Shown here piece after piece: positions 14,559 through 59,259 of a stretch of 64,000 bases of DNA. The notes under the pieces were generated by a model. The model made no database searches, had not been told where the DNA came from, and was given only the letters and a program-made list of their open reading frames with translations. The stretch comes from Craterostigma plantagineum (lineage: Eukaryota > Streptophyta > Magnoliopsida > Lamiales > Linderniaceae), in assembly GCA_027422505.1 (NCBI GenBank), contig JAPQWV010000051.1, forward strand, positions 806,001-870,000. Direction: 5' to 3'. The translations under genes were made by a program, and so were the position numbers. The number at the start of each line of letters is the position of its first letter. Within the stretch, counting starts at the first letter, position 1.

Positions 14559-17500
14559 ATGGAAGAGCAGCAAGGATTGCAGAACACCGAAAACCAGAAT
14601 CAGAGCAATACTGTGGCTGTAGATTTCAATAATCCGATGTACATTCATCCATCGGACTCGCCAACTATCGATTTAACTACTGGAATTCTCAGAGGATCAG
14701 ATAATTACAAGATATGGAGCTTGAGAATGATTGTGGCACTTCAAGCAAGAACAAGATAGCATTCATCGATGGTACGTGTAAGTGTCCAGACAAGAACTCC
14801 CCTCTTTATCTAAGTGAAAAAGATGCGATGCATTGGTCAAAACCTGGATACATCGATCAATTTTGGAAGAATTGATCTCTGGAATTGTCTATCATGAAAC
14901 TGCATACGAGATTTGGAATGATTTAAAATAGAGGTATGACAAGATTAATGGAGCTAAAATGTATGGGCTGTTCCGTGAGATTTACTTCAACACTTAAGGC
15001 GCATCCAGTGTAACTGAATATTACAACAGACTCAAACCTCTATGGGATGAGTATGACTCTCTAATTCCCTCACCTGCAACTGAAGTATCAGTAGAATACA
15101 AGAACTTTTGTAGCTGGCAGAAGATGATGCAGTTTCTAATCGGCTTGAATGACTGTTATCAGAACATAAGATCTCAGATTTTGTTGATGACACCTCTTCC
15201 ATCCCATAGTCAGGTATACTCGATGTTGCTTAATGAGGAAGCACAACGTGGTATCAACCTTCAGGCTGGAAATAATGATTCATCAGTGGCCCTCATGTCT
15301 AAATTCTCCACCAGCAACTATTCAAACAACAATCAAATTGGAAGGGGTAATCTGTTCTGTGACAACTGCCACATCAGTGGACACACGAGAGAGAATTATT
15401 TAAGATACATGGATATCCCACCAATTATGTTAGAGGTGGAAGAAGAGGATTTGGTGGAAGAAGAGGACAAGGCAGAAATATAGGTGGGAGAGGATATAAT
15501 GCTAACAATGCCATTGTCCCAGAAGCAGGTGGTGATAAGATAAAGGGGGAGACTTCAGGCAATCAACTAGGCTTCACCCATGACCAGTTCAATCAGATCC
15601 TGAAGCTGATAGAGAAGAATCCTGAGGATAACAGAGCTGCTAATGGTTCAGCTCATGCAAACACCTCAGTTATGTGCCTTAGTAGCATTGATACCATTCT
15701 AGACTCTGATAACCTCTGGATAATTGATACATGGGCAAACCATCATATTACATGCAAAAATGAGTTCTTTGTTGAAAGCTGATGGTGATCCTAGCTATAT
15801 TAATACTGTGAAACTACCAAATGGTACTTCTAGTAGGATACATCTATCTGGTGCAGTTGATATCAGTAGGAACTTTAGGCTAAAGAATGTGCTATATGTG
15901 CCTGATTTTAAACATAATCTTCTATCAGTTTCTAGTCTAACAAAAGATGGGAATGTACATTTGAAGTTCTTTCATAATTACTGCGTTATACAGGAAATCT
16001 CGACTGACAGGATAAGGGGGATTGGTAGGCAGGAGAATGGATTATACATAATTCAAGCCAAGCCCCATTAACAGTTGCAATGTTTCTAGTTATTCTAATA
16101 ATTCAAATAAGGAATCTGCTCTCAGAACAGATGTAACTGATGATGTATTGAGATGGCATTATAGACTTGGTCATATTTCCTTTGGTAGGATGAAGTATAT
16201 GAATGACTCGAAGTTGAAAATGAGTGAATCTGTTAAATACTGTTCCTTATGTCCTTTAGCTAGGCATAAGTTTCCTGTTAGAGAATTGAATGATAAGACT
16301 ATGTTTGAGTTAGTGCATATGGATATATGGGGGCCATACAAGGAAAGAACTTACAACATTGAGAGGTACTTTCTAACTTTAGTAGATGATAACTCGAGAG
16401 CTACTTGGGTGTTTTTTTATGAAAACTAAGGCAGAGGTATTTGATGTTTTAAAAAACTTTCTTGCTTATGTAGAAAATCAGTTTGAAACTAAGATCAAGA
16501 TTATTAGAAGTGACAATGCATGGGAATTTTTCTCACATGAATGCAATACTCTTTTTGCCTCGAAAGGGATTATCCACCAAAGCTCATGTGTTTACACTCC
16601 ACAACAGAATGATGTTGTGGAGAGGAAACACAGACATATCTTGAATGTTGCAAGGGCATTAAAATTTCATTCAAATGTTCCAATCAAGTTTTGAGGAGAG
16701 TGTGTTAAAACAGCTGTATACATTATAAATAGAACTCCCACTCCCATATCAGATGGTAAGACTCCATTTCAGATACTTTTTAGGAAGAAGCCATCATACT
16801 CACATTAAGATATTGGATGTCTGTGTTATGCTAAGGTTCCCTCAGATAAAAATAAATTTAGTCATAGATCTAAACCGTGTGTGTTTATGGGCTATTCTGT
16901 TACCCAAAAGGGATATAGACTGCTAGACTTAGGAACAGAGGAGTTTCTCATTTCCAGGGATGTTCTGTTTGTTGAAAATGCGTCAAATGCTACTAATCTC
17001 GAGAGAGGTAAGTTTCCAGTTCATAATGAGCAGAACTACTATGAAGATCTGGTTCAGCCCTATCAGCAGCTACATGATAATGGAGAAGATCAGAACATCA
17101 CTGAAGAACCAGTAAGTGATGGCCTAGAAGAGCATGCACAAATGGGAACAGAAGACGCTCAGAACAACTCAAATGAAATCACAGCTCAAACCCCTGCAGC
17201 TCAGGTAATGAGATCAGGTAGAGTCTCTAAACCACCATACTGGCATGCAGATTTTGTGTCTCCATATATATATCTGATACAAATATGATAGACATAAACA
17301 GATATCCTCTACCCAACATGATCAATAAAACATGGGAACTAGTTGATCTTCCAAAAGAAAAATCAACTATAGGCTGTAAATGGGTATATACAATTAAGTA
17401 TAAGTCTAATGGGGATATAGAAAGATACAAGGCAAGAGTAGTTGCCAAAGGATACACACAAAAAGAGGGAATATACTATAATGAAACTTTTTCACCCGTT

Positions 17501-18761
17501 GTAAAGCATGTCACAATTAGGACAATTTTATCATTAGTTGCAATCTTTGATTGGCCTTTGTTGCAAATGGATGTCACTAATGCGTTTCTTCAAGAATGAA
17601 GAAGTGTATATGCAAGTTCCACCAGGTATTAATGTTCCGAGAGGTAAAGAACTACAGGTCTGCAAATTGAACAAGGCATTATGGCTTAAAACAAGCCTCA
17701 AGACAATGGAATCATAAGTTCATCGAAAGTAAATTTGGCTTTATGCAATCTAAACATGATTATTCATTGTTTACCAAGCAGGACAGAGACAAGTTTTCTG
17801 TTTTGCTAGTATATGTTGATGACATGTTAATAACTGGCAATGACATTGCCATGATTACTAACTGTAAAGGCTACCTCAGTGATATTTCCTTGGGTGAGAT
17901 GAAGTATTCCTTGGGATTGAGGTAGTAAGATCCAAGGATGGAATCTGTCTCAACCAGGAAAGATAGGTCATTGAGCTCTTAAAGGAAACAGGTATGATAG
18001 GGTGCAAATCTGTGAACACCCCAATAGAGCAGAACAACAAAGTGGTAAGGGAAAAGGTGAAAGATGAAGATCCAGTCATTGATGATATATCTGGTTTTCA
18101 AAGTAAACTGTTATATATGTGCATTACTCGACCTGATATTACATATGCAGTTCAGGTCCTTTGTCAGCGTATGCACAAGCCAAAACAAGTGCTTGTGGAA
18201 GCAGCTCACAGAATCCTCAGATATTTAAAGGCTAGGCCAGGTCTCGGGTTGTGGATGTCTGCAAAAGTTCACTAGCAGTTCATGTTTTTTTGTGATGTAG
18301 ATTGGGCATCATGCCCAAATACAAGAAGATCTTTAACAGTGTATTTAGTAAAGTTGGGAGATTCAGTCATAACGTGGAAGTCCAAGAAGCAGACTATAGT
18401 TGCAAGAAGCTCAGCTGAAGCTGAATATAGATCACTAGCAGCTGCAACATCAGAGATAGTATGGTTACTTGGGTTACTAAATGATTTGAGAATAAATGAC
18501 TTATATCCTGTACAGGTCTGGATTGATAGCAAATCGGCTATACAACTGGCTGCAAATCCAGTGTTTCACGAGAGGAGCAAGCACATTGAAGTGGATTGCC
18601 ATTTTATCCGAGACAAGCTTGATGAAGAGATCATAAAGTCTAACTATATTTCTACCATGGATCAACCCACAGATTTGCTAACCAAGCCCTTAGCACGTGA
18701 ACAATTTGAATATCTTTTGAGCAAGTATGGTGTGATAGATCTTCATGCACACCATGCTTGA
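14559..18761 (+). pseudogene. gag-pol remnant of the copia element
   Basis: Pieces recognisable in order: a gag N-terminus from 14559; a zinc knuckle CDNCHISGHTRENY (about 15357-15400) whose last Cys has become Tyr/Leu; an altered protease site DTWANHHIT (about 15725) where DTGA is expected; a GAG-pre-integrase WHYRLGH block (about 16155). Then an integrase core (16300-16690), RT beginning WKWVYTIKYK-like near 17375, the YVDDMLITGND motif (about 17811-17845), and RNase H with DWASCPNTRRS (about 18300) through SAEAEYRSLAAATSEIVWL. In-frame stops and shifts occur near 14757, 15483, 16070, 16428, 16694, 17288, 17597 and 17925. The loss of the protease Gly and the zinc-knuckle Cys argues for real decay rather than sequencing error. 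Confidence 0.9.
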
Positions 18762-44963: not shown

Positions 44964-45460
44964 CTAAGCAGGATTCAACGGCGTCGAATCCGAAGAAGAA
45001 GACAACGCCACGTCATCATCACCTTCCTCCATGGAAATATCAACAATCTCCACCGTACAATCACCACCATCCAAATCCAATCGACGGCCCTTGTCAATCC
45101 TCACCAAACTCTCTAGAACTTTTTGCATCGAAGGCCTCATTTCTCCCTCTTGTTGCAAGCACCTAAACGCAAGCTCGCCGACCGAACCCATCATCGCCCT
45201 TACCTCGCCATCCCTTTCAAAGCCCAACCTCGAATCGAAGAGCTCATCAATCCGACGGCTCTGAATCTTACTCACGTCCATGGTTGAAAGGTTCACGTCG
45301 CCCCTCCTCCGCCCAACATCCACCGCCGGCAACGAAGATATGAGCTCGATTAAGACGACCCCAAAACTGTAGACGTCGCTCTTCTCCGTCACCTTATAGC
45401 ACTGGTAATATTCTGGGTCGACGTACCCCGGCGTCCCCTGCGGCGCGGTGGACCAGCATT
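44964..45460 (-). pseudogene. receptor-like kinase C-terminal fragment (LRK10L-type)
   Basis: On the minus strand from about 45455: TAPQGTPGYVDPEYYQCYKV, EKSDVYSFGVVLIELISS, and further to a stop at 44964 (about 160 residues). These are kinase subdomains VIII-XI of LRK10-like receptor kinases, ending in an acidic Ser-rich tail. There is no ATP-binding lobe, ectodomain or membrane segment upstream; homology stops abruptly near 45460. It is a truncated copy, not a gene. Confidence 0.75.
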
Positions 45461-45804
45461 GACCAGTCCAATTTTACGCCATGATCTCATATTTAATATC
45501 CGTTTTTCGAACCGAGCTCTGCACACTCAGTAATATGTTAGTGATACAATTACTGTGTTTTGTGTTCATCAAACCGGATTGCATATCTAAATCCAATTAT
45601 TTGTTAGGTTAGGAGATTTGGTTGCTGTGTTGGAGAGAACGAACATTGACCAAAGTAGTATTATTAGTTTTAGCGATAGAAGAATTTTAATTTTAGTGGA
45701 GATACGGATTTCAGATTATCTTTCTATGTTTTATTAAGGGAGAACTACTGCCAAATTAATTTAGTGTGGCGGGCACAAATTACCTTGTACCCAAATTTTA
45801 ATTT

Positions 45805-46216
45805 TGTTGTTTATTTTTATATGTAGATCGAACGAAGAGAAGAACTAGTGGAGGGAGAAGTATTTTCTCGAGCAAATGATTTTTTTTCTTTACTTAACTT
45901 ATTGCTCACGTACTAAGAAGAGCTTGTGAAGAGAATAAAATTTCGGCCAACTCATTCTTTTGTTTCTATTTCTCTTACTTTCAATCACGTATGATGCATG
46001 CATATAAATAGATACAAATCACACACAAAGACAACTAAGCATTCAAAAACATATCATGCTTGTAGATTTCTTTTTGACTTGTATGGCAATCATATCATAT
46101 CTTTATTTCGGCTTATATTGACTAAGTTGGCTGCCATATCACGCTTGTCCCTTGGGCTCTTTTCATGCTTCACATTTCTTTGTCTTTTCTGCTTCCACAA
46201 TTGAGCTTATCCAACA
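45805..46216 (-). repeat. 3' LTR of the chaperone-carrying element
   Basis: 412 bp, TGTTGTTTATTT...CCAACA as read on the plus strand. Differences from the other copy that I noticed are at TTCTCGAGC/TTCTTGAGC, GCATATAAA/GCTTATAAA and GCTGCCATA/GCTGACATA. Confidence 0.95.
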
Positions 46217-46251
46217 AATTCCCCCCTTAAGCTCAATCTTCTTTCGGTCTT

Positions 46252-46779
46252 TCAATCCTCCTTAGACTTAACTCTTTTTCGCGTATCATACGTTGCGGCT
46301 CGCCACTTGCCGTCAATAATTGTCTTCGTGATTATCTCCATATTTGTCGTCCAGCCGCACTCGCCAGTTATTAGATAGTTGAGTGCGTTGGCGACATTAC
46401 CGTAGACGACCATTTTTTCTATTTCCTTAGTTTTGTCGTCTACCTTCATCCGCGCTTTAGTGATGAAAACCAACTTCCTTTTATCGTATTCTTTCAACTG
46501 CATGACTGCGTATTCGTCGATCGCATCATCAACCACATGCAAAACTTCGTAGCACTTCTTCATCGGGCTTTCGAAGTGTAGAGAGCTATCTATAGCCTTT
46601 TCGCTTCCGTCGGTGCTGTAATAAATATAGTAATGTTTTTCCTCCATCTTCGGGACGTAGCCCGTCAGGCGCGTCGACTCGTCGCCAGGATCTGGCGTAT
46701 CGAATCCTTCATGCTCTTTCTCGTTAATCTCCTCCATGGTGACGACCATGTACTTCTCCGTCTCGTTGTTCACGAGCAC
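46252..46779 (-). CDS. HSP90-like segment of the retroelement protein
   Basis: The open frame covers about 175 residues. From residue about 30 to 155 it parallels the end of the HSP90 middle domain and the start of its C-terminal domain. PGDESTRLTGYV, YIYYSTDGSEKAIDSS, KKCYEVLHVVDDAIDEYAV, QLKEYDKRKLV and ITGECGWTTNMEII match HSP90 landmarks (YYITGESKKAVENS, YEVLYMVDAIDEYAV, TGEYGWTANMER). The charged helix between them in HSP90 is missing. The N-terminal ATPase domain and the MEEVD tail are absent, so chaperone activity is unlikely. The frame begins upstream without its own ATG in the natural phase. It most likely continues from the preceding gag/BiP frame, from which it is separated by an indel in a run of 14 A (46834-46847). 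Confidence 0.8.
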   Translation of the reverse strand: MLVNNETEKYMVVTMEEINEKEHEGFDTPDPGDESTRLTGYVPKMEEKHYYIYYSTDGSEKAIDSSLHFESPMKKCYEVLHVVDDAIDEYAVMQLKEYDKRKLVFITKARMKVDDKTKEIEKMVVYGNVANALNYLITGECGWTTNMEIITKTIIDGKWRAATYDTRKRVKSKED

Positions 46780-48302
46780 ATCGCTTTTATGAACGACCTC
46801 CTCCGCGACTTCTTTGCAATTTTTGCCGTTCTCTTTTTTTTTTTTTTCAGATTTTGGTTATCGTCTACCGCCTCGAGGGTCTCCTTGTCGTTCTTGGCTG
46901 CTTCTAACTTATCTCCGAGCTTGTCCTTCTCGTAGATTCGATTCTTCAAATTGTTTATATAGGCCTCAAGGCTGTTTCTCGCCTTGATCCACTGCTTCAC
47001 GTCCTTGTCTTTCTGGCACTCTTCTTCCTCGTTAAAGCGCTCTGCCTTGTTTGAACTGGCTTCTATAGGTTCTCCAGCTCCTTGTACACCGACTTTATCG
47101 CCGGTCAGTTGCAGGGCCTTCGTCATGACTTCATGCGCGTCCATCTCATCGCGCTTATACGTCTCTCCTCGTACCGCTTCTTCAGCATGCTTGGTTGTCT
47201 CTTCAACCGTCTCACCACCTTTCTCGGACACTGTCTCGTGTGTCTCAACGGCTTTTACATTCGCCTCGTGGAATCTATTTTTATTTTCGTCCGACGACGT
47301 GTGCATGGCGTCGTCGACCTCGTTCTTCATCTCATCGGTATTTTCTGATGTCTTCGCGTCGATCTCATCGACTTTCTCAGGTGGTTGTCGTGGCGGCGTC
47401 TCTTCAATCGCTTCCTCTTTCTCGAGCTTTGAGGGCTCCGCCTCGTAGGTAGGTTCCGTTGGTGGAGTGGTGGTGGATACTTCATGAGTGATATTTTCTT
47501 TTATCACTTCAACGACTGCTTCAGTCGTTTTCTCTTCTTTCACGGCCTCTTCGGCCTTTGAAGATTTTTCTTCCTTTTCTTCACCTGCGTCTTTCTTTGA
47601 CGCTCCGCCTTCACCGTGAGTTGGCTCCTCGGCCTTTGAATATGTTTCCTCCTCTTCAGTGACTTCACTGGCTTTCATCTTTGATGATTCGCCTTCTTCT
47701 TTTCCCATCTCGGGTTTTAGTGGTGGTTTGACTTCTTTCTTTTCCACCACCGGCTCAGCTTGATCTTTATCAAGCTTACTCTCCACATCACAAGCTACCT
47801 CTTCTCGTACGGGTTCGCCCTTAACGTTCTTCTCGTCCTCCTTCGTCGTCTCAAGTTCGCCCTGTTTTTGTGGCTGAACTTCGTTGCTGCTATCAGCGAC
47901 TTTATATGCTTTCTCCAACAGATCCCAGGCTTTCTTGGCTTCTCTCGTTGCGCCTATGGCTCCGAAACCGGTAAGATCTAACGCCTCTAAGATGAGAAGG
48001 CGCGCGAGACCATTTTCTCTCACGGCGGCTCCCAACGTCTTCCGTTGCGACTTTGTATACTTCGTCGTATTTGGTGAAAATCCATCTTCGATTATTTCCC
48101 ATAAGCCTTGCGATTTGAATAGAGCTCTCATTTCGACGCTCCACCTTGCGTAGTTATTCTCGGTGAGTTGCGGGATTAACATGTGGTCAAATAATATCAG
48201 CTTCCACACCATCGGCACTATCGGCTCTGTCGGCTCTGGCGATATCATCGGTTCTGACTCTCGCTCCGCCGGTACTGGCGATATCATCGGCTCTGATACC
48301 AT
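46770..48302 (-). CDS. gag-like protein with BiP/HSP70-like C-terminal segment
   Basis: 510 residues. Residues about 35-145 form a copia gag-type domain (LTENNYARWSVEMRALFKSQ, GLWEIIEDG). About 145-420 are a Glu/Lys-rich, low-complexity linker with no recognised domain. About 420-483 resemble the C-terminal helical lid of ER HSP70/BiP: IKARNSLEAYINNLKNRI, YEKDKLGDKLE and LEAVDDNQ match the BiP pattern ARN-LE-YVYNMKN, DKDKLADKLE and WLDDNQ. After residue 483 the frame enters a run of 14 A and ends 27 residues later; the alternative frame leads into the HSP90-like segment. The start codon lies inside the primer-binding site (ATGGTATCAGAGCC). The function is unknown; a structural gag role is inferred. 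Confidence 0.8.
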   Translation of the reverse strand: MVSEPMISPVPAERESEPMISPEPTEPIVPMVWKLILFDHMLIPQLTENNYARWSVEMRALFKSQGLWEIIEDGFSPNTTKYTKSQRKTLGAAVRENGLARLLILEALDLTGFGAIGATREAKKAWDLLEKAYKVADSSNEVQPQKQGELETTKEDEKNVKGEPVREEVACDVESKLDKDQAEPVVEKKEVKPPLKPEMGKEEGESSKMKASEVTEEEETYSKAEEPTHGEGGASKKDAGEEKEEKSSKAEEAVKEEKTTEAVVEVIKENITHEVSTTTPPTEPTYEAEPSKLEKEEAIEETPPRQPPEKVDEIDAKTSENTDEMKNEVDDAMHTSSDENKNRFHEANVKAVETHETVSEKGGETVEETTKHAEEAVRGETYKRDEMDAHEVMTKALQLTGDKVGVQGAGEPIEASSNKAERFNEEEECQKDKDVKQWIKARNSLEAYINNLKNRIYEKDKLGDKLEAAKNDKETLEAVDDNQNLKKKKKRTAKIAKKSRRRSFIKAMCS

Positions 48303-48304
48303 TT

Positions 48305-48716
48305 TGTTGTTTATTTTTATATGTAGATCGAACGAAGAGAAGAACTAGTGGAGGGAGAAGTATTTTCTTGAGCAAATGATTTTTTTTCTTTACTTAACTT
48401 ATTGCTCACGTACTAAGAAGAGCTTGTGAAGAGAATAAAATTTCGGCCAACTCATTCTTTTGTTTCTATTTCTCTTACTTTCAATCACGTATGATGCATG
48501 CTTATAAATAGATACAAATCACACACAAAGACAACTAAGCATTCAAAAACATATCATGCTTGTAGATTTCTTTTTGACTTGTATGGCAATCATATCATAT
48601 CTTTATTTCGGCTTATATTGACTAAGTTGGCTGACATATCACGCTTGTCCCTTGGGCTCTTTTCATGCTTCACATTTCTTTGTCTTTTCTGCTTCCACAA
48701 TTGAGCTTATCCAACA
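48305..48716 (-). repeat. 5' LTR of the chaperone-carrying element
   Basis: 412 bp, nearly identical to 45805-46216, immediately upstream (minus orientation) of the primer-binding site. Confidence 0.95.
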
Positions 48717-48721
48717 AATTT

Positions 48722-49036: not shown

Positions 49037-50048
49037 TAGGGGTGGGATCGGGTCGGGTATATCGGGTTTCGGGTTTTTCGGGTCGGGTACCCGAAAAAAT
49101 CGGGTATTGAATTTTAAACCCGAACCCGACCCGACAAAAATCGGGTACCCGACAATCGGGTACCCGAAACCCGATCATCGGGTTCGGGTCGGGTTCGGGT
49201 TTCACATTATTATTTAAAAAAAAAAAAAAAACTTAAATTAAGAGGTAAAAAATCGCAAACTACATCGGCTGCTGTACAAATCAGATCTGGATCCACAGTA
49301 AAGGAGTAAACCCAACTCAAAGTGATGACGGCATCAGAAAGTAGCTCCATTGATACAGATTTCATTAGAAGGGAAAGATGAAAAGGGGAAAATTAGTGGT
49401 CGGAGATAGGACTCACAAACTTCAACATACCTGCTGCAAAAGTCAGGGAGGCGAGGAAGCTCATCTCCTCCGAGGACTTGCCGGTGAAGTCGTTTTCGCC
49501 GAGGTTGAGAAAGTCGAGGAACTTAAAACTCGCCAACTCCGTCGAAACCGCCGAGGAAGTGCTCATCAAATCCGACCTAAAGTTCTGCAGTCGGCCGAGC
49601 CCAATAGCCTTTTGGAAGTCTCTTACAACTGCGCCAACATCCCTTCTCTCCTTCCAGCGACTAATGGCGTGAGATGAGGAAGCTCGCCAATCGCCATGCT
49701 TCATCTTCTGCTAGTAAACAAAATAAAATTCGGTCTTGTTATTACAGCAATTAACGAGTTTTTAAGTTCATATTATTTTTTTATTTTGTTTGTGCATTGG
49801 GCTAGACTTGTTACTTGGGCCGAATTTTTAATAAAAATGCAGTGTTTTTTTTTTTCTTAAATCGGGTCGGGTACCCGATAAACCCGATCGGGTAGCATAT
49901 TGCTACCCGAAACCCGACCCGAAGTATTACATCGGGTATCGGGTTTAAACCCGATACCCGATTAAACCCGACTTTTCACACCCGATCGGGTAAAACCCGA
50001 TCGGGTCGGGTCGGGTACCCGAAACCCGAACCCGAATGCCCACCCCTA
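49037..50048. mobile_element. hAT-like element 2 with captured gene fragment
   Basis: 1012 bp. TIRs are TAGGGGTGGG and CCCACCCCTA, with a perfect 8-bp duplication TATATAAG (49029-49036 and 50049-50056). Both ends are built of tightly packed 'TCGGGTACCCGA' and 'ACCCGAACCCGA' motifs. The centre (about 49250-49740) is different, GC-balanced sequence that looks like host gene material, listed separately. No transposase. Confidence 0.8.
49393..49704 (-). pseudogene. captured exon-like fragment, possibly LRR-type
   Basis: On the minus strand an open frame from 49704 (MKHGDWRASSSHAISRWKER) runs to FLASLTFAAG, where it meets a splice donor G|GTATGT near 49430. The segment FLDFLNLGENDFTGKSSEEM fits the leucine-rich-repeat spacing LxxLxLxxNxFTG. 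The upstream part is not recognised. It lies wholly between the hAT TIRs. Confidence 0.4.
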
Positions 50049-57541: not shown

Positions 57542-59259
57542 TTAGTAAGCTAATTGTCTGGTTTTAAGACCATCTTTTGTCTTACCAGGCATATTTAAAA
57601 ATGTCCCCACGATACTGTCACAAACATTCTTTTCAACGTGCATCACATCGATGCAATGTCGCACGTCGAGGTGCTCCCAATATGGCAGGTCCCAAAATAG
57701 CGACCGTTTTTTTTCCAGACATTAGCCTTTGGTATTTTACATTTCTTACCAAACTGGGCGTTAATGTTCGCAACGATGTCACTCACTTCTTTGCCTTTCA
57801 AAGGAAATGCAGCATGAGAAGTCTCGCTCTTTCCATTAAATAATGGCAAGAGTTTCTTCTTTGTTCGATATTCGTGCGTACGTGAAAGAAATTTCCGATG
57901 TCCCATATAAACGTGTTTCCTGCAATTGTTTAACCACCGGCTGTCCGTGTTATCCCCACAAATTGGACAAGCTTTCTTGCCCTTCACACTGTAGCCAGAT
58001 AGATTTCCATAAGCGGGAAAATCGTTAATGGTACAAAATACCATGGCGCGTAGCGTAAATCTTGATTTCATGTACGCGTCGTAAACCTCAACGCCTTCGT
58101 TCCATAAAGTTTTCAAATCATCAACCAACGGAGCCAAGTAGACATCAATGTCATTACCAGGTTGTTTAGGACCCGATATTAACAACGACAACATGATGTA
58201 TTTCCTTTTCATTGAAAGCCATGGAGGAAGATTGTAGACACAAAGCAATACCGGCCACGTACTATGACGGCTGCTCATGTCACCGTGTGGATTTATCCCA
58301 TCAGTGCAAAGACCAAGCCTAAGATTCCGTACCTCAACGCCAAATTCAGGAAACAAAGTATCAATGTTTCTCCATTGAGGCGAATCTGCCGGATGTCTCA
58401 GCTTTCCATCTTTTATTCTTTCTTCGTCGTGCCATCTAAACATTTTAGCGACATCGGCGTTGGAGAACATACGTCTTAGTCTAGGAACTATCGGTAAGTA
58501 CCATAGAACCTTAGCAGGAGGACCATTGACTTCATCTTTTTGCTTATAACGCCAAGTGTCACAAACTGGACACTTATTAACAAATTCATACTTGCCCCTA
58601 TAAAGTACGCAATCGTTGGGACAAGCATGTATTCGCTCATACTGCAAATTTAAAGGGCATAACAACTTTTTTGCATCGTACGTCGACGTGGGAAGCTCAT
58701 TACCGGCAGGAAGCATATCCGAAAATATTTCTAAGAATGTAGAGAAACATTTGTCTGAAATTCCAAATTTTGCCTTAACATTCAACAGTTTGAACACAGC
58801 AGATAGCTTTGTGTATTTTGAACAGCCGTTGTACAAAGGGGTATTGTGGTCTCTAACTAAACTGTCAAATATTGGAGGACGTTCTTCAGAATCCTCTTGA
58901 ACATCGCGAAGCATGTCCTCAATACAATCATCTTCGTCAGACAAACTGTCCACTACAACATCGTCGACTGCATTTGGTGGCACTAATTTACTACTTGATT
59001 CCCCCACACAACTAGCTTCGGTGACTGTCTCACCGTGCCATATCCAAGTAGTATACCCAGGTTTAAAACCGGTAATTATTAGATGTTCCTTAACAGTCGC
59101 ACTATCCCGCCACTGTAAGTTATTACAATTACGGCACGGACATGAAATCTTCGATTGCCTCTTTTTTCTCTTATTCTGTTCTGCACATGTCATAAATTCC
59201 TCTACACCACTCAAAAATTCAGCTGTTGTTCGATTACTACACATCCAAGCCCGATCCAT
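57542..59259 (-). pseudogene. CACTA transposase TNP2 (TNPD), N-terminal half
   Basis: Starts MDRAWMCSNRTTAEFLSGVE at 59259. The transposase-associated domain has the metal-binding-like ISCPCRNCNNLQWRDSATVK and HLIITGFKPGYTTWIWHGE. The transposase_21 domain follows: KLLNVKAKFGISDKCF, CPNDCVLYRGKYEF, CPVCDTWRYK, MFRWHDEER, RNLRLGLCTDGINPHG and NDFPAYGNLSGYSVKGKKAC. The frame breaks at a run of eight A (57707-57714) after residue about 515. In the shifted frame the expected WDLPYWEHLDVRHCIDVMHV and EKNVCDSIVGTFLNMPGKT appear, then a stop at 57542. The C-terminal half (roughly 400 residues) is gone, replaced by AT-rich DNA and the LOG gene. Confidence 0.92.

Follow-up and report, generated by a model that had tools for sequence, protein, structure and literature searches.

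Plant long terminal repeat (LTR) retrotransposons carrying host sequence have been described in several forms. The maize LTR retroelement Bs1 holds three transduced host pieces (H+-ATPase, xylan endohydrolase and beta-1,3-glucanase) (PMC13317346). TR-GAG elements are non-autonomous, with two LTRs around a GAG-only frame (PMC9784723). Gypsy elements of Phalaenopsis, 25 kb in length, carry an AlkB m6A demethylase domain as an additional, enzymatically active frame (PMC9289625), and BARE-2 and Veju are template-switch chimeras in which modules were exchanged between LTR-retrotransposon RNAs (PMC13317346). We describe here a 2.9 kb element of Craterostigma plantagineum in which a gag domain is joined to a piece of the HSP70 chaperone BiP and a piece of HSP90. 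It lies in a 64,000-nucleotide stretch of contig JAPQWV010000051.1 (positions 806,001 to 870,000, forward strand), all of which is called the window below. We read it as a non-autonomous Copia-type LTR element with a TR-GAG-like layout that captured both chaperone pieces from its host and is mobilized in trans, and put the probability of this reading, its three parts taken jointly, at about 0.78. The two chaperone fragments, the lid of BiP above all, have become lasting components of a large, recently active family.

Layout of the window element

The element is read from the minus strand and has the following features; ORF denotes an open reading frame.

45805..48716, minus strand: LTR retrotransposon, non-autonomous, Copia-type, 2.9 kb (matched LTRs, target-site duplication, primer-binding site, polypurine tract)
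45800..45804, no strand: target-site duplication (TSD) AATTT, left copy (sequence)
48717..48721, no strand: TSD AATTT, right copy (sequence)
48305..48716, minus strand: 5' LTR, 412 bp, 3 mismatches against the 3' LTR
45805..46216, minus strand: 3' LTR, 412 bp, 3 mismatches against the 5' LTR
48289..48301, minus strand: primer-binding site (PBS) TGGTATCAGAGCC, 3 bases inward from the 5' LTR, overlapping the first ATG of ORF1
46217..46230, minus strand: polypurine tract, adjoining the 3' LTR (sequence)
46770..48302, minus strand: ORF1, 510 codons from ATG, with gag, linker and BiP-lid piece
47850..48212, minus strand: Copia-type gag, N-terminal half only: DUF4219 plus positions 1-87 of 172 of Retrotran_gag_2 (Pfam)
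47133..47849, minus strand: Glu/Lys-rich linker containing a partial duplication of 33 bp (in frame, 85% identical, spacing 78 bp)
46839..47123, minus strand: HSP70 lid (SBD-alpha) piece, host BiP nearest (sequence comparison)
46834..46847, minus strand: A14 tract, ORF1 and ORF2 being in different frames here (sequence)
46252..46857, minus strand: ORF2, 201 codons, with the HSP90 piece and an element-specific C-terminal tail
46321..46704, minus strand: HSP90 piece of cytosolic type, from the end of the middle domain to the start of the C-terminal domain, with an internal deletion
46255..46320, minus strand: C-terminal tail (DGKWRAATYDTRKR...), present in most aligned copies and separate from HSP90

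The paired TG...CA LTRs of 412 bp, the AATTT duplication, the PBS and the polypurine tract bear out the structure that the original prediction had drawn from the window alone. The PBS TGGTATCAGAGCC fits initiator Met-tRNA. With 3 mismatches over 412 bp the two LTRs have diverged by 0.7%, which at a substitution rate of 1.3e-8 per site per year places the insertion roughly 0.3 million years ago. A simple motif scan of the window LTR finds no heat-shock element, leaving ONSEN-like control of the element without support.

PF14223 and PF13961 both exceed the Pfam cut-off in the window copy, PF14223 over the first half of its profile only, and the gag is of Copia type; zinc-knuckle and pol matches in Pfam are absent from ORF1 and ORF2. 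The linker has no Pfam match at E < 1 and its source was not found; linker and captured chaperone sequence together make up more than half of the window frame. The HSP90 piece matches Pfam best over profile positions 259-352 of 518, with a second short stretch, and the matching part covers neither the N-terminal ATPase domain nor the dimerizing C-terminal domain. For HSP70 the lid region alone matches, the ATPase domain and the substrate-binding beta domain having no match. Pfam and host-gene comparison between them confirm the predicted interior of gag, Glu/Lys-rich linker, HSP70-lid and HSP90 pieces; in Pfam by itself gag and HSP90 are clear and HSP70 stays under the cut-off. A protein database search with ORF2 returns two proteins with Pfam HSP90 (74 candidates). 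Nothing at E <= 0.001 is returned for the lid alone (86 candidates) or for whole ORF1 (7994 candidates scored), a search that low-complexity words probably swamped, and ORF1 has no match in PHROGs. The frame of the window copy is broken, since past the A14 tract ORF1 continues in a frame other than that of ORF2; some other copies cross this site in one continuous frame.

Host sources and age of the captured pieces

All 17 lid pieces tested score best against L057, a host BiP exon ending in HDEL, among the 8 host HSP70 loci compared (8 of 100 listed genome matches), which rules out cytosolic HSP70 as the source of the lid. The HSP90 pieces (16/16) score higher with cytosolic-type HSP90 than with GRP94 when two cytosolic-type loci (L046 and L047) are set against one GRP94 (L048) over the shared stretch, a comparison that left out a second GRP94-like stretch (L049). 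The most diverged pieces score low in both columns (cytosolic versus GRP94, 67 versus 42 for L021 and 75 versus 45 for L025). The names GRP94 and cytosolic are ones we presume from recognition of the sequences and their closeness to HSP82 and HSP90-beta, without database names. By the 16/16 scores GRP94 is ruled out as the HSP90 source. The original prediction was right that both pieces are homologous to host chaperones and wrong that they are BiP and its endoplasmic reticulum (ER) partner GRP94: with the HSP90 piece nearer the cytosolic type, the pair combines an ER chaperone with a cytosolic one.

The host BiP lid and host cytosolic-type HSP90 are thus the likely sources of the captured pieces, as judged from these scores. 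Host BiP and cytosolic-type HSP90 loci are present in the same genome, as gene transduction of the Bs1 kind demands; the host stretches compared fall inside single open frames and hence say nothing on intron loss. In Pfam the HSP70 match stays under the cut-off both for the window piece and for the highest-scoring of 16 members (18 bits versus 20.6). Together with the strongly biased protein composition, this would suit a chance likeness arising in Glu/Lys-rich, helix-prone sequence. The host-gene comparisons, 17/17 for the lid and 16/16 for HSP90, refute that reading, which we regard as scarcely credible.

The variable stretch of L025 gives a weak HSP82 match against the PDB (E 0.0011). The C-terminal part of L017 and L021 has a sub-threshold match to the Pfam GAPDH N-domain (E 0.027 and 0.045) where other copies have HSP90. 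HSP90 fragments also occur elsewhere, at G000:C42:3970550-3970996, C104:1952771-1953217 and C23:6238675-6239103, with 57-58% identity to plant HSP90; at about 145-153 residues the matches are longer than the element piece, and they may be either old pseudogenes of HSP90 or captures that have diverged less.

Synonymous divergence (dS) from the closest host BiP is 0.92-2.36 or saturated for the lid, and from host cytosolic-type HSP90 1.05-1.91 or saturated for the HSP90 piece. Values this high, or saturated, make the capture undatable by dS. Set against the LTR divergence of 0.7% they agree with the prediction that capture preceded insertion; the capture is far older than the window insertion.

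Copies, modules and in-frame constraint

The host assembly searched comprises 1.71 Gb in 6262 contigs. The whole element has at least 97 matches in it (39 of 1613 first-look candidates scored), from which 37 regions were taken for similarity to the window copy and therefore form no random sample; 41 regions entered the later structural tests. By tblastn, gag and lid are present in 37/37 regions. An HSP90 core match of at least 40 residues is present in 19/37, some at just 28-31% identity (hand count, tblastn), and several extra HSP90 matches cover the element-specific tail alone. In Pfam, 3/3 copies chosen through an HSP90 search have HSP90. Across the family the HSP90 piece is far less uniformly kept than the BiP lid. 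A single frame of 570-715 codons runs from gag to tail in 12/37 regions, or 10 with allelic pairs counted once. The lid as query finds at least 150 loci that are 65-100% identical (best 150 of 1520 first-look candidates). Of these best 150, 141 are free of stops in the lid, 81 of the 141 lying inside open frames of at least 500 codons; a simulation without selection leaves 29-40% of lids stop-free at 70-79% identity, a comparison that is a rough guide only because the lid loci are related and listed best-first. As predicted, the chimera has been through many copying events. The further claim that both pieces were captured and kept holds for the lid; it is incomplete as regards HSP90, with its core in 19/37 regions only, and the window copy itself, whose frame is broken.

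Outside the window copy a script found a TSD in 23/41 regions, and the PBS 12-mer TGGTATCAGAGC stands beside the 5' LTR in 27/41; 4 of the 41 are too short to show either. Six pairs of regions have common flanks, which in five cases extend to both sides and in one are confined to the 3' side, so that locus counts overstate insertion counts; the three such pairs compared in full are 99.1-99.7% identical. By flanks and TSD, L018 and L044 are one insertion (99.25% identical over 5875 bp) whose alleles differ: a continuous frame of 638 codons goes with LTRs that are 100% identical in one, and broken frames go with an LTR identity of 96.8% in the other. L034, L029, L038 and L039 contain tandem arrays of at least two elements, and the L034 array shares its LTRs (LTR-interior-LTR-interior-LTR), the pattern left by unequal recombination.

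When the window copy is compared in 120-bp steps and the closest copy taken for each, its LTRs and 3' tail are closest to L030/L034 (97-99%), its gag to L042/L043/L026 and others (99-100%), its proximal linker to L052, L023, L010 or L025, varying by step (94-100%), its distal linker, lid and first HSP90 part to L031/L032 (94-99%) and its mid HSP90 to L051 (84-92%). L031/L032 have no match to the window LTR in this stepwise comparison; L030/L034 have the window's LTR, yet their gag steps match at only 82-94%. The window copy appears to be a patchwork of subfamilies, as template switching between co-packaged RNAs would produce. In L050 (G000:C1:26920800-26924600, frame 398-2956 minus) the cassette follows a complete gag (1.8e-38, positions 1-171 of 172; zinc knuckle 5e-6) in one frame of 853 codons, apparently joining it at the start of the protease. 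These comparisons show LTR, gag and cassette as modules that have evidently been exchanged between subfamilies. A cassette with varying gags in front of it and varying LTRs around it could also have begun as a host chimeric gene (gag-BiP-HSP90), taken up by elements as one unit. This we hold to be very improbable: the 41 regions are element-like wherever the sequence sufficed, and no stand-alone gene turned up in this examination, which covered a minority of the 150 lid loci.

The window-type LTR has at least 41 genome matches, the window's two included (40 of 129 candidates scored). Among the matches listed are 17 LTR pairs, all 2.1-2.5 kb apart start to start, a spacing with no room for pol; no pol-sized member is among them. 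Two pol probes, taken from Copia sequence elsewhere in the window, have no match inside the elements; two RNase H probe matches, in L031 and L034, sit outside the LTRs. With no Copia pol (protease-integrase-reverse transcriptase-RNase H) found by the two probes or between the listed LTR pairs, we infer that a helper element with a different LTR mobilizes the family. In the mechanism we propose, the host BiP lid and cytosolic HSP90 pieces would have been transduced long ago by read-through or by template switching in reverse transcription. An autonomous Copia element would supply protease, integrase and reverse transcriptase, copying the family in trans, and co-packaging of different RNAs with template switching would keep reshuffling the modules.

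The chaperone segments are under in-frame constraint in the copies tested. The ratio of non-synonymous to synonymous divergence (dN/dS, median pairwise Nei-Gojobori among copies) is 0.45 for the lid, with 0/202 usable pairs (of 210) above 1. For the HSP90 core, after realignment, it is 0.46. Controls in shifted frames yield 0.75 and 0.90 (lid) and 0.85 (HSP90, one shift).

Several points weigh against the reading as a whole or against constraint on its parts. No autonomous partner was identified by the pol probes or the window-type LTR pairs. The HSP90 core is missing or past recognition in 18/37 regions, and Pfam finds HSP90 in 2/10 long-frame copies, that is, not in 8/10. The HSP90 value of 0.46 leans toward better kept copies, because its alignment holds 16/25 frames after a motif filter dropped 9, the most diverged among them; with wider rows the median is 0.51 and 13/174 usable pairs exceed 1. 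For gag and linker one shifted frame (0.47 and 0.56) is as low as the real one (0.54 and 0.61), so no selection is claimed there and the control is clean for the chaperone segments only. Fold prediction for ORF2 from a 3-row alignment was useless (pLDDT, the predicted local distance difference test score, 29), and any function of the fusion is putative.

Tentatively, the fusion may be translated and act in the particle, most likely as an extension of Gag whose lid and HSP90 surfaces would serve assembly or chaperone docking. Its own folding activity is unlikely, because neither piece contains an ATP-binding domain. It is conceivable, with similar reserve, that the BiP lid and the HSP90 middle segment form chaperone surfaces in Gag which, selected in frame and exchanged as cassettes, help the truncated Gag or its co-packaged partner to assemble or recruit host chaperones; a hitchhiker element would then pay its way in the shared particle. 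According to a 2025 review, Gag of yeast Ty1 passes via the ER, and HSP70/90 are among the host factors whose influence on retrotransposon recombination it proposes to screen (PMC12786077).

Against this particle step alone stands the possibility, a serious one though short of an even chance, that the chaperone pieces amount to captured filler. The frame would then stay open through descent from a few recent masters, plus RNA protection by a long open frame or a coupling of translation to packaging, and not through any activity of the lid or HSP90 surfaces. Filler would suit an HSP90 core that is diverged or lost in many copies, a module exchange frequent enough to restore frames, and a dN/dS that is just moderately low over non-independent pairs. 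It sits less well with in-frame dN/dS about half that of the shifted frames in both segments, with 15 lid columns that do not vary among 16 copies whose identity to the first copy is 55-85%, and with the excess of stop-free lids over simulation, related as the loci are. The fusion might instead interfere dominantly, either through lid and HSP90 parts that titrate chaperones or co-chaperones of the host or through a truncated gag that disturbs other Copia particles; this seems improbable. A gag without zinc knuckle or pol and chaperone fragments without ATP-binding domains would fit such a role, but the pieces are about half diverged, and binding may therefore be lost.

Around the element, a short array of TCGGGTACCCGA-like palindromic words lies at 49040-49200, some 320 bp off. 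About 330 bp from the insertion a minus-strand open stretch, 44964-45473, resembles the C-terminus of an LRK10L-type receptor kinase; between it and 50398 no minus-strand frame of at least 130 codons occurs, the element frames aside. Apart from the element, plus-strand frames at 14998-18761 look like a degraded Copia element (gag, integrase/reverse transcriptase and RNase H pieces), and a 538-codon minus-strand frame at 57643-59259 resembles a CACTA (TNP2-type) transposase.

Comparison with described elements

A screen of 121 angiosperm genomes via the reverse transcriptase domain retained 15 extra domains past its frequency filter, all Gypsy-type, and its main text contains no mention of HSP, heat shock or chaperone (PMC9289625); having located elements by reverse transcriptase, it would miss by design families that lack one, such as the present. 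HSP70, HSP90, heat shock and chaperone are likewise absent from the main text of a rice and sorghum survey of captured genes (PMC3726574). At the level of titles and abstract openings, with little subscription literature, literature searches list no element with BiP or HSP90 pieces, in keeping with the original prediction, which knew of no described element with this pairing. The transduction is well supported as real and unusual: its kind, a host-gene-carrying non-autonomous LTR element, is known, and its content, scale and persistence are new to us. Together, the at least 150 lid loci and the module swapping make it directly testable whether a retroelement gains from chaperone parts, and the family also allows a test of how template switching builds new fusion proteins.

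Like Bs1 (PMC13317346), the window element is a plant LTR element with a frame fusing retroelement sequence to several captured host gene fragments; unlike Bs1, its host genes are two chaperones and its family is large and diversified (41 regions, at least 150 lid loci), with module swapping. TR-GAG elements resemble it in being non-autonomous, with a gag frame between two LTRs; the window copy has LTRs, the N-terminal gag half only and no pol, but also no zinc knuckle and a large non-gag extension. In the Phalaenopsis AlkB elements, too, a plant LTR-retrotransposon lineage has fixed a domain of host type (PMC9289625); the present family, in contrast, is of small, Copia-type elements and carries partial, non-enzymatic pieces fused to gag. 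Compared with BARE-2 and Veju, the exchange here covers LTR, gag, linker and captured host segments inside one family.

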